The notes beneath the pieces were generated by a model. The model was not told the DNA's origin and made no database searches. It worked only from the letters and a program-made list of their open reading frames with translations. 23,932 bases of DNA from a virus, in the IMG/VR virus record IMGVR_UViG_3300046459_000097, positions 1 through 23,932 of that record, one strand, 5' to 3'. Made by a program: the position numbers and the translations under genes. This document shows positions 4,288-20,832 of the stretch, piece by piece; within the stretch, counting starts at the first letter, position 1; the number at the start of each line of letters is the position of its first letter.

Positions 4288-6351
4288 TTACGCTCCTGGC
4301 GAGGCTTTAGGCTGTGCAGCCTTAGCCGCGGCATTGAGTTCAGCCGTGCGCTCCTGCGCCGCAATCTTCTCCCGCTCGACGTCGAGCTGCTCCTCACCCA
4401 GTTGGATGCGGGCGGCAGTATCGGCGTCCTGGCGGTCGTTGGTGCGGTCGGTGTTGAGAGCGTCGAGGTGCAGTTTGGCGCCCGACTGCTCCATCTTGGA
4501 CTGGGTGGCAGCGAAGAGGCGATTGTCTGCAGCCTGCTTGACGTTGACGGAGGCCATGGCCGCGTCTGCCGTCTTCTCCTTGATGTCCAGCTCGCGAACC
4601 TTGAGAGGATCGGGCTGCGGAGCAGGCGCGTTGGGATCGAGGTAAGCCGCGAACCGGTTGAAGCCCTTGAGCTTGCCGATGTCGTGCAGCATCTCGTAGC
4701 GCTGCTTCTGGCCGAACATGTTGCCCAGGCCGGGATCTTGCGCCATCTCTTTGTAGCCCATGGCCAGCTCGTTGGCCGCAACGTCCTTGTCGCCGTAGCC
4801 CAGGTGCTGGGAGACGGTGCAGGTCGTGCGTTCGGTCCAGGCTTCTGCGTCGACCTGCAGAGGAGCACCCGCGACTTCGATGACGCGCTTGTCCTTGTAG
4901 ATGATGCCGAGACGGACCACCTCAAGCATGAGGGGCACGAGGAAGTTGTAGGCGAAGTTGCGCGCCATGATCTTCGCGCGCTGGCCCGAAGCCTTCATCA
5001 TGTTGTCCACAAGACCCTTGGAGTTCTGGGTCGAGATGGCGTCCTTGTTGAGGCCCTGGCTGAGCGCAGAGATACCCGTGGACTTCTCGTTGTTCGCGGT
5101 GAGTTCACCGAGGACTTGGAAGACGTACGGGTTCAGCGGGTTCTGTACGAACGGCGCGACGCTATCCGGCCGGCGAACGTTCACGATGCCGCCGAGGCGG
5201 TTGTCGAGAAGCTCGCGCGGGTTCATCAGTCCACCATTGACCACAGCGTAACGCGGGTTGGTGGTGATGGCCGTGTGGTCGAGCACACCGCGGTAGAGCA
5301 CGGTGCGGGCGTTCTGCGTGTGGATCACGCGGGCCGCGAAGTTGTGGCCGTAGAAGACGTGGGGCAAAGGAAGCGGCACGTAGGCCAAGAAGGGGGCCTT
5401 GTCGACCTCCTGGGGATCCTCAAGGATCTTCCCGCCTGCGTGCAGGATCTTGTAGAGACGAGCGCCCTTGGAGCTGTCGATCTCCATACGCACGTAGCTC
5501 TCGTACAGGACGATGAACTCTTGCGACTTGTCGATGGCTTCGTTGTCGGCGTCGTTGCTGTGCGTCGGGTTGTTACGCGCGAGAACCTCGGGGCTGAACT
5601 GCAGCTCCCTGGCTTCGTCGGCCGGCAGGCTGTCGACCAGGGACTTCTTGATGCCCATCTCGATCAGCTCGGCGCGCGTCTTCGGCGTGCGGTGGCCGCA
5701 GTATTTGGCGTCGAGGATGCAAGTGGCCAGCGGTTCGATCAGGAACTCTTCGGGAGCAATCGGATCGATGCAGGTCTTGCTGACGTCCTTCTTGCGCGAG
5801 AGGGTGCCTGAGAAGGTTCCGGTAGCCGGGTCGAGGTCGGCGTCGAAGGTGTCAACGTCGTCCTGGGACGCGAGGGCGTGGGCGTCCTCATACGAGATGG
5901 GCCCGAAGGTCTCCTCGCTGAATGTGTGCTTCTTTTCCCAGTACACCTTCGCGACGCCGGCGCGGGCCGTAAGGCCGTCGTACAGGACGCTGCTGAAGAT
6001 ATTGTAGCCAGGGTTGGCGCGGAAGATGACGTAGGACGCGTACTCGGTTGCGACCCGACACAGCTCTGCGTTCATGTCCTGATCAGGATCGAACTGCGCG
6101 ATGTGGTCGCCGCCTGCGAACACCTCCAGCAACTGTGATCGCTGCATCTCCACGCTGTCGTAGACGTCGGAGGAGACGTAGGAGCTTGAGCCCTCGCTGG
6201 TGCGCTTGGGTAGATCGCCGTTGATGTAGCGGGTGACGCGTTCGCGTTCTTTGGCGAGGCGACTGTCGAACCAGCTAACGCTGTTGGTCGCTTTAGGCTC
6301 GACCTTCGCGAGGATTTCCTCGTGGGTAAGTATAGCTGGCTTCTTCGCCAT
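4288..6351 (-). CDS. Portal protein (P22/SU10-type)
   Basis: At 687 residues this has the length of P22-like portals. The N-terminal part has the family pattern: SSYVSSDVYDSVEMQRSQLL (56-75) followed by EVFAGGDHIAQFDPDQDMNA, then the ATEYASYVIFRANPGYNIF helix-loop (101-119), and YDGLTARAGVAKVYW (124-138). The C-terminal 80 or so residues form a long charged helix rich in A, Q, E and K, which would be the barrel that reaches into the capsid. The dodecamer would sit at the unique vertex and be the docking site for terminase, scaffold and adaptor. The start is six bases after the terminase stop, with TAAGGA as ribosome site. Identification is secure. Confidence 0.92.
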   Translation of the reverse strand: MAKKPAILTHEEILAKVEPKATNSVSWFDSRLAKERERVTRYINGDLPKRTSEGSSSYVSSDVYDSVEMQRSQLLEVFAGGDHIAQFDPDQDMNAELCRVATEYASYVIFRANPGYNIFSSVLYDGLTARAGVAKVYWEKKHTFSEETFGPISYEDAHALASQDDVDTFDADLDPATGTFSGTLSRKKDVSKTCIDPIAPEEFLIEPLATCILDAKYCGHRTPKTRAELIEMGIKKSLVDSLPADEARELQFSPEVLARNNPTHSNDADNEAIDKSQEFIVLYESYVRMEIDSSKGARLYKILHAGGKILEDPQEVDKAPFLAYVPLPLPHVFYGHNFAARVIHTQNARTVLYRGVLDHTAITTNPRYAVVNGGLMNPRELLDNRLGGIVNVRRPDSVAPFVQNPLNPYVFQVLGELTANNEKSTGISALSQGLNKDAISTQNSKGLVDNMMKASGQRAKIMARNFAYNFLVPLMLEVVRLGIIYKDKRVIEVAGAPLQVDAEAWTERTTCTVSQHLGYGDKDVAANELAMGYKEMAQDPGLGNMFGQKQRYEMLHDIGKLKGFNRFAAYLDPNAPAPQPDPLKVRELDIKEKTADAAMASVNVKQAADNRLFAATQSKMEQSGAKLHLDALNTDRTNDRQDADTAARIQLGEEQLDVEREKIAAQERTAELNAAAKAAQPKASPGA

Positions 6352-18933: not shown

Positions 18934-19000
18934 CCCCACGGCCCTCCTAGCTCCCTCACGAATGCATAGCTGCCATGCGCATCCACTCGCATCATTTCGG

Positions 19001-19030
19001 TTGACGCGGGGGACCGAACGGCCCTTAGAT
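19001..19030 (+). promoter_or_regulatory. Weak candidate early promoter
   Basis: TTGACG (19001-19006) is five of six bases of the sigma-70 -35 consensus; TTAGAT 18 bases downstream is a poor -10. It lies properly ahead of the first plus-strand gene. The -10 weakness makes this tentative. Confidence 0.25.
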
Positions 19031-19070
19031 GCATGAACACATCGCAACCCATTTGACACGAAAGACCGCA

Positions 19071-19789: not shown

Positions 19790-19867
19790 GGCCCGCGGCG
19801 CATATGTGCCTCCGGGCCTTAGGGCATTAGAGGGGCGAGTTGCGCCCTGATAGCTGCCAGATGATGA
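19790..19867 (+). repeat. Intergenic leader cassette, copy 1
   Basis: A compound hairpin (GGCCCG 19790-19795 with CGGGCC 19813-19818, inner dyad GGCGCATATGTGCC) is followed by CCTTAGGGCATTAGAGGGGC (19817-19836) and CGCCCTGATAGCTGCCA (19843-19859). The last two blocks are identical in copy 2 at 20195-20264. It lies directly upstream of the gene at 19880. Confidence 0.7.
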
Positions 19868-19879
19868 GAGGATGCCACG

Positions 19880-20173
19880 ATGCACCGCTATGACGTTGAG
19901 TTTACCGATACGTTCGCAGGCGAAGCTAACTACTCATGGGTGAAGCGTGCGGTCGTCACCGTGCCCGAACTCACACACTACGGATACACGGGCTCCACGG
20001 ATGGCAGCTACGCGCGTGCCAATCGCTCGCAGCGCCGCGAGGTCATGAAGCAGGCCAAAGCCGCCCTAGGTCTCACAGGGGTTCGTGGGGTCACTAGCGA
20101 GCACGGCGACATGATCGAATTCCGCCCGTACCGGTGGTGCGCCGTCATGTTCATCACGTGGAAAGACGACTAG
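19880..20173 (+). CDS. 97-residue conserved phage hypothetical protein
   Basis: ATG 19880 follows GAGAGG eight bases upstream. The first half is beta-like with aromatic residues (YDVEFTDTFAGEANYSWVKR), then a helix rich in R, K and A (SQRREVMKQAKAALGL, about 49-64), and a C-terminal strand pair with GDMIEFRPYRWCAVMFITW. The GD-IE-RP--CAV-FI pattern is one I associate with small early proteins of unknown function found in many phages. Preceded by the intergenic cassette copy 1. Confidence 0.65.
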   Translation: MHRYDVEFTDTFAGEANYSWVKRAVVTVPELTHYGYTGSTDGSYARANRSQRREVMKQAKAALGLTGVRGVTSEHGDMIEFRPYRWCAVMFITWKDD

Positions 20174-20194
20174 GCCGCGATCCATAGGCTTTAC

Positions 20195-20264
20195 GGCGGG
20201 CTCCTTAGGGATACCCGCCTTAGGGCATTAGAGGGGCATTCCGCCCTGATAGCTGCCACATGAT
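20195..20264 (+). repeat. Intergenic leader cassette, copy 2
   Basis: Hairpin GGCGGG (20195-20200) with CCCGCC (20214-20219), inner TCC-TTAG-GGA, followed by CCTTAGGGCATTAGAGGGGC (20218-20237) and CGCCCTGATAGCTGCCA (20242-20258). The stem sequence differs from copy 1, but its position relative to the conserved blocks is the same; the short linker between blocks is 4 bases here and 6 in copy 1. Confidence 0.7.
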
Positions 20265-20277
20265 AGGAGATGACCAC

Positions 20278-20715
20278 ATGCGCACCATCGACCAAATGAT
20301 CCAATCGGAAGTCCTCGTTTGCCTCTCGTCACTCGTTTCGACGCTTGCCGAGGGCTACGGAACGATTGCTGGGGCTCGCAATCCGCTTGCCGAGTTGTCG
20401 GAGCAGGCAATGGAGATTGCTTCGCCCGTGCCTGACTATGAGGAGGCAGCGCTTCAATACCGCGCAAAGGGATTGCCCATCCTGCAAGGCCGCGACGCAG
20501 AGAAATACTGCGCGCTGTTCGATATCGAACCCTATGACCGCGAGGTCTTCGAGCACTGGGCTGTTACCGATTGGCTCGCTGACAAGCTGATCGCCGCTGG
20601 CGAGAAGGTCGATAAAGACTTCGCAGGCATGTGCGTGTGGGCGCGGACCACCACGGGCCAAGGGATCGCACAGGACTACGTGATCCAGTGCATCCACAAG
20701 TCTCTCCAAACCTAA
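20278..20715 (+). CDS. 145-residue conserved early hypothetical protein
   Basis: I use ATG 20278, eight bases after TAGGAG; an ATG at 20260 lies within the leader repeat and has no ribosome site. The C-terminal half has a recognisable pattern: EVFEHWAVTDWLADKLIAAG, EKVDKDFAGMCVWARTTTGQ, then GIAQDYVIQ (about residues 84-138). This block recurs in phage and plasmid proteins of unknown function. The rest is helical, with an L-x-E-L-S-E-Q-A segment. Possibly a host-interaction protein; nothing shows the activity. Confidence 0.7.
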   Translation: MRTIDQMIQSEVLVCLSSLVSTLAEGYGTIAGARNPLAELSEQAMEIASPVPDYEEAALQYRAKGLPILQGRDAEKYCALFDIEPYDREVFEHWAVTDWLADKLIAAGEKVDKDFAGMCVWARTTTGQGIAQDYVIQCIHKSLQT

Positions 20716-20731
20716 CAGAGCCCGAAACCTA

Positions 20732-20775
20732 GGGGAGCCCCACGCTCCCCAATGGTCGACGCGTATCCGCGCGTC
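20732..20775 (+). repeat. Two adjacent perfect hairpins
   Basis: GGGGAGC-CCCAC-GCTCCCC (20732-20750) and GACGCG-TATCCG-CGCGTC (20758-20775), both perfect, in the 117-base gap after the 145-residue gene. No T run follows. The site has the same place (after a gene, before the next leader) as the two leader cassettes but a different sequence. Confidence 0.65.
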
Positions 20776-20832
20776 CTGATGATGGGCAATGCAAATCGTC
20801 GGAAACCCCTTGTTTCATAGGAGCAAACGGCA

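Follow-up and report, generated by a model that had tools for sequence, protein, structure and literature searches.

RNase III sites of the T7 type are intercistronic hairpins with internal loops that lie between small early genes. The attC sites of integrons are likewise structured and placed between small, mostly unknown genes; each starts at a stop codon, and its structure is kept over its sequence. The put RNA of phage HK022 is a cis-acting, two-stem element of about 70 nt that occurs in the early transcripts of the phage as putL and putR (PMC9378689). In cluster K mycobacteriophages, the short repeats termed SAS/ESAS are found at the translation starts of some small non-structural genes; the authors who described ESAS favored a DNA site, having found that the departures in its two arms give no support to pairing in RNA (PMC3203893).

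Here we describe an element of this general kind from a 23,932-nt stretch of viral DNA (the window), where it is present as two cassettes. It belongs to a new structured RNA family that is borne by uncultured phages and has no entry in Rfam 15, and SAS/ESAS is its nearest published analogue. Like SAS/ESAS, the cassettes are tied to the starts of many unrelated genes and often have an inverted repeat on the upstream side; unlike them, they show two-sided changes that keep the pairing and also hug the upstream stop codon. Whereas the 17-bp inverted repeats of ESAS lack support for RNA pairing, such pairing is strongly supported here, and the 13-bp SAS/ESAS core GGGATAGGAGCCC was not found at the start codon, the sequences between cassette core and ATG being of the AAGGGGA or AGGAG types. 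HK022 put resembles the cassettes in size and two-stem form but not in number or place: an early operon has a single put, with no tie to start codons, and a cassette array has several copies between its genes. The T7-type RNase III sites have a longer paired region than the cassettes, which in turn have conserved unpaired letters and a second hairpin. With attC the cassettes share the gene-gap setting, and a recombinase is linked to them in one phage group, but it is the sense strand and not the bottom strand that pairs, the AAC/GTT cores are not conserved, and the linked recombinase is a serine enzyme rather than IntI and is absent from some cassette-bearing records. A search for an IntI-type integrase retrieved a tyrosine recombinase in only 7 of 35 records, which are fragments, and the one in locus L045 fell far below the IntI cut-off. 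Among open-licence papers on T7 intercistronic hairpins and phage structured RNAs, we found no description of the cassette element.

Two intercistronic cassettes in the window

The earlier note had reported that two gaps carry the same 20- and 17-base blocks at the same place behind hairpins with differing stems. Both observations stand: the 20-base block occurs exactly twice in the window (19817-19836 and 20218-20237), as does the 17-base block (19843-19859 and 20242-20258), with no further copy of either within 3 mismatches and with shuffle means of 0.00 and 0.09 matches, respectively. The hairpin preceding the blocks (P1) is fully paired in both copies despite its changed arms, reading GGCCCG-c-GGCGC-AUAU-GUGCC-uc-CGGGCC in copy 1 and GGCGGG-c-UCC-UUAG-GGA-ua-CCCGCC in copy 2. 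The description as a compound hairpin was also right, in that both copies adopt the same two-hairpin fold (z = -3.9 for copy 1 and -2.8 for copy 2; Table 1). The second hairpin (P2) is formed by the two blocks pairing with each other, GGCAUUA with UAG-c-UGCC around GGGGC...GCCC, and in copy 1 this outer pairing is lineage specific.

Table 1. Features of the two cassettes and their flanking genes in the window
Feature	Position	Strand	Basis or remark
Cassette copy 1	19790-19859	+	window
Copy 1 hairpin P1	19790-19818	+	fold; pairs covary in 27- and 53-sequence alignments
Copy 1 linker block UUAGGGCAUUAGA	19819-19831	+	conserved; UAG nearly invariant across family
Copy 1 hairpin P2	19823-19858	+	fold; inner stem kept in L006, L045
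Copy 1 Shine-Dalgarno-like GAGAGGA, for 97-aa gene	19866-19872	+	sequence
97-aa gene (phrog_22729), 3' of copy 1	19880-20173	+	
Cassette copy 2	20195-20258	+	window
Copy 2 outer stem P0, enclosing P1	20188-20226	+	covaries in family
Copy 2 hairpin P1	20195-20219	+	fold; covariance model match
Copy 2 hairpin P2, CAUUCCG tip	20224-20257	+	fold; same tip in L074, L080, L084
Copy 2 Shine-Dalgarno-like AGGAGA, for 145-aa gene	20265-20270	+	sequence
145-aa gene, 3' of copy 2	20278-20715	+	no confident family assignment; might start farther upstream, at 20260

In the lineage of the window, the linker block can pair either upstream, as part of the outer stem P0, or downstream, as the outer part of P2. 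In copy 2, GCUUUA (20188-20193) pairs with UAGGGC (20221-20226) to form P0 in competition with outer P2, and the alternative folds have predicted energies of -35.2 kcal/mol (with P0) and -36.8 kcal/mol, a gap of 1.6 kcal/mol; copy 1 has no good P0. The predicted competition in copy 2 may represent a switch or may be an accident of this lineage.

Each cassette has a stop codon close upstream, that of a 32-codon open reading frame for copy 1 and that of the 97-aa gene for copy 2, and ends 19-21 nt before the next start codon (19880 and 20278). The term leader in the earlier note is thus half right: the element does precede a start codon, but it begins close behind an upstream stop codon and is better called intercistronic. 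Its placement ahead of each early gene was too strong a statement, as some genes carry the element and others do not, and "early" was inferred from position.

Two other regions of the window have features of their own. The stretch at 20716-20832, ahead of the next gene, contains another conserved leader with the hairpins GGGGAGCCCCACGCTCCCC and GACGCGTATCCGCGCGTC; it is also present in L006 and L045 and has only short pieces in common with the cassettes. At 18966-19035, an inverted repeat TTCGGT...ACCGAA surrounds TTGACG and is followed by CTTAGAT; in front of the whole stands CATAGCTGCCATGC, which nearly matches the 17-base block. This region is likely to be the start of the rightward operon and could be a promoter with operators; units of the same type occur twice on the minus strand of L045 (about 5340-5440 and 5860-5935).

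Anatomy, membership and covariation of the RNA family

Across the family the element measures about 65-75 nt and occupies the gap that separates a small gene's stop codon from the next ribosome-binding site, its parts being the outer stem P0, the stem P1, a UAGA linker and the optional hairpin P2, followed by the Shine-Dalgarno sequence and the start codon. In the consensus, the stop codon is followed after 5-9 nt by a few unpaired bases, P0 (approximately GCYUUA/UGAGGC), a mismatch and the six pairs of P1. In the upper part of P1, a C faces UA, and beyond this internal loop 3-5 pairs form an inner stem with a cap that is mostly of the GNRA or UNCG type. The 3' side continues with NNUAGA, P2 (GAAGC...GCUUC and variants), AAGGGGAA or AGGAG, and the ATG. 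The internal-loop C is invariant in 53 of 53 sequences, the UA is present in most and the UAG in nearly all. Tips of P1 interchange among GCAA, GAAA, UUCG and UACG, a sign that what counts at the cap may be its stability. Two adjacent stems of about 70 nt, the build of HK022 put, are present in most copies, but P2 is missing in several (L007, L081, L123 and L137).

A search for homologues of the 97-aa protein led to L006, which has the same two copies, and to L007, where a related cassette stands at three successive genes. Most upstream regions of these homologues, folded singly, have no cassette, and the element is therefore not tied to this gene. The 97-aa protein itself (phrog_22729) has a wide distribution among unrelated phages, with examples in Pseudomonas phage 20Sep420 and in giant Caulobacter phages (terminal repeats). 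In scans of viral contigs, the exact full pair of blocks gave no matches and a looser form retrieved L006 and L045, while a general pattern derived from L006 and L007, in which nothing but the TAGAAGC block and the 3' arm of P1 was fixed, gave 17 stretches, 14 of which, but not the other three, also had a complementary 5' arm and the same C/UA loop. With two more patterns and a covariance model, the element was found in 34 of 39 IMG/VR records, with a total of 62 copies; most of those records had been chosen by sequence pattern. Of 80 loci sampled independently through a neighboring recombinase, 42 carry the element, with 75 copies among them, a set that overlaps the 62 copies. The further copies in relatives to which the earlier note had looked thus proved to be many.

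A pattern scan of genome contigs returned 31 matches, none with the cassette architecture on inspection. With covariance model R2, one weak match, a plain hairpin, was obtained in 397 genomes of one order and no match in 385 genomes of the class, a weak test with 13-14 candidates scored per genome in either case. Comparison of the cassettes with named phages by blastn gave nothing convincing, and an Rfam 15 covariance-model search with E-value ceilings of 5 and 1, run on the window and on 8 related loci, gave no match at the cassettes. The family seems to be confined to phages.

The proposal in the earlier note that the structure is under selection at the RNA level is strongly supported by covariation and by wobble counts. 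Our main alignment for this test, A5, was made with MAFFT without fitting to structure and contains 27 sequences (26 distinct). In it, 92.3% of cells are paired and two-sided changes occur in 10 of 14 pairs (57 cells), counts that are inflated by shared ancestry, since the cells are not independent. The covariation score of 0.51 compares with 0.19 in shuffles, 0 of 500 of which reach it, and drops to 0.06-0.15 when the registers are slid by 1-3 columns. The same covariation is seen in sets of 53 and 63 distinct sequences, whose alignments were fitted to the model; models R1 and R2 reward pairing, so that their numbers overstate the evidence, a bias that the pattern-only matches escape. P2 covaries as well, with its pairs 3, 4 and 5 switching between A-U and G-C or flipping C-G. 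The wobble counts are strongly asymmetric, G-U being found in 55 cells and A-C in 3, and in 30 further sequences in 28 and 2, respectively. Strand-neutral mutation would yield both equally, and the excess of G-U therefore indicates selection on the mRNA-sense strand, which argues against both a DNA operator and a bottom-strand, attC-like fold. We regard the structure itself as close to certain.

We examined the surroundings of the element in 90 distinct contexts. The core starts 5-9 nt past the upstream stop codon in 40 of the 46 copies whose upstream gene has at least 45 aa, the next start codon follows 16-44 nt past the core, and a Shine-Dalgarno-like sequence is present downstream in 79 of 88 contexts. 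The 81 downstream proteins fall into 52 families and the 83 upstream proteins into 55; the diversity of the former indicates a generic element rather than the autoregulatory leader of one gene. Searches of whole records showed that the copies within a record are mostly close together on the same strand, with up to four in succession, each with its own stop and start codon, and in the set chosen through the recombinase all 75 copies are on the coding strand.

Gene exchange and the linked serine recombinase

Comparisons between related loci show that gain, loss or exchange of whole genes takes place with the cassettes as boundaries, which is a secondary role of the element. In L045, one cassette ahead of a different gene has a 5' part that corresponds to copy 1 and a 3' part that corresponds to copy 2, and L080 is without a gene-plus-hairpin unit that is found in L074, the join lying behind P2. 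The hairpins of cassette 2 differ in 26% of columns between the window (20195-20258) and L006 (4316-4380), compared with 0-0.7% in the flanking genes, which indicates that the hairpin was replaced as a unit with its pairing kept; on this comparison, the replacement appears to be unusually fast as well as unit-wise. Hairpin similarity is 0.718 where the upstream genes are homologous, 0.680 where the downstream genes are and 0.639 where neither are, the corresponding values for the leader being 0.586, 0.629 and 0.468; the linkage of hairpin to neighboring gene is weak in a small subset and a little clearer in the larger set. Two further short direct repeats at gene ends and starts in the same operon (21365-21391/22064-22090, 93%; 23576-23600/23778-23802, 96%) may have been left by gene exchange.

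Of 36 cassette loci, 20, which belong to one phage group, encode a serine recombinase of about 215 aa (PF00239; e.g., L137:7810-8457) downstream of the cassettes and in the same direction, and in the 80 loci picked through the recombinase, 75 of 75 cassettes are upstream of it on the same strand. Its relatives, at 44-55% identity, are found on alphaproteobacterial plasmids. PF00239 was not found in the window lineage or in several long cassette-bearing records (41, 50, 50 and 60 kb), which may be fragments, and on account of the latter we rejected this enzyme as an obligate partner. A separate recombinase, a tyrosine integrase, is encoded in L045 (470-1754) beside a tRNA-like sequence (GGCCACGTGGTCGAGTGGTTAGG), an arrangement that suggests a temperate phage in the window, with a tRNA gene as its integration site.

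Candidate functions of the element

Of the classes offered in the earlier note, a cis-acting regulatory RNA or processing site is still the best and is likely. Within it we lean, at slightly less than even odds, toward an intercistronic mRNA element acting in cis that insulates or stabilizes the leader of each early gene. Such an element would fold between the terminating and the initiating ribosome on a polycistronic early transcript, give each gene an insulated leader of its own and block run-on and coupling from the upstream gene; it might also shield message ends from decay or mark a cut, while the Shine-Dalgarno region would be kept clear of neighboring structure. Action at the level of the message is favored by the place of the element between stop and start, by its mRNA sense and hyperstable tips, and by the diversity of the genes that it accompanies. 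Against insulation or stabilization stand the absence of P2 from several copies and the length of P0 and P1 together, which is less than that of a classical two-turn RNase III substrate. The unpaired C, UA and UAGA are also kept more strictly than either insulation or stability would demand, which hints at recognition by a specific partner. These same letters, together with the recurrence of one element ahead of unrelated genes and the two exclusive folds of copy 2, would fit an RNA operator whose C/UA loop and UAGA linker are read by a phage or host protein or by a small RNA, forming a posttranscriptional regulon. A regulon under one factor is nearly as likely as insulation or stabilization, and we regard the operator as a possible reading, but no RNA-binding protein common to all contigs was found, the protein families detected being shared by subsets only, and the competition between folds is limited to the window lineage. 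By analogy with HK022 put, the two stems could instead act in the nascent RNA, as an antitermination element that helps polymerase to pass through early operons with no pause or termination. Size, two-stem build and the presence of a cis-acting RNA in a phage transcript all recall putL and putR (PMC9378689), yet a put site near the promoter contrasts with successive copies at stop and start codons, and the frequent lack of the second stem makes this reading unlikely.

The remaining readings place the function in DNA. That the cassettes are recombination sites, at which the linked serine recombinase would move gene cassettes by acting on the folded or duplex element in the manner of attC, accords with the constant position of that enzyme, with the chimeric cassettes and losses of units, and with the slight tendency of hairpin similarity to track the upstream gene and of leader similarity to track the downstream gene. 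The wobble bias toward sense-strand RNA and the long records devoid of PF00239 make it improbable, and the two unit-level events differ in their crossover points, which general homologous recombination fits better than a site-specific cut. An integron attC proper was seriously considered and rejected, as the RYYYAAC and GTTRRRY cores occur together in 0 of 88 contexts and the 3' core, GTTRRRY, in none. A repeated promoter or operator in double-stranded DNA, the third class in the earlier note, would account for repetition ahead of genes and for the superficial likeness to the cluster K repeats. It is very hard to reconcile with arms that change together without keeping their sequence and with the asymmetry of G-U and A-C, and neither a sigma-70-like -35/-10 pair nor a terminator was found at the cassettes; we consider it highly improbable. 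A broader and rather doubtful scheme would see a dedicated system that ties regulation to evolution. In it, every gene of a variable early array would be controlled through this one RNA element by one factor of phage or host origin, perhaps RNA polymerase itself, the repeats letting genes plug in and out as units with the aid, in some phages, of the serine recombinase.

These results add to the known structured RNAs a well-supported family that is missing from Rfam. Counterdefense genes are often found among small genes that change fast and have no known function; the cassette marks arrays of such genes and so allows them to be located by sequence. It also raises the question of how one intercistronic RNA serves dozens of unrelated genes, each of which it probably controls or insulates on a shared message.
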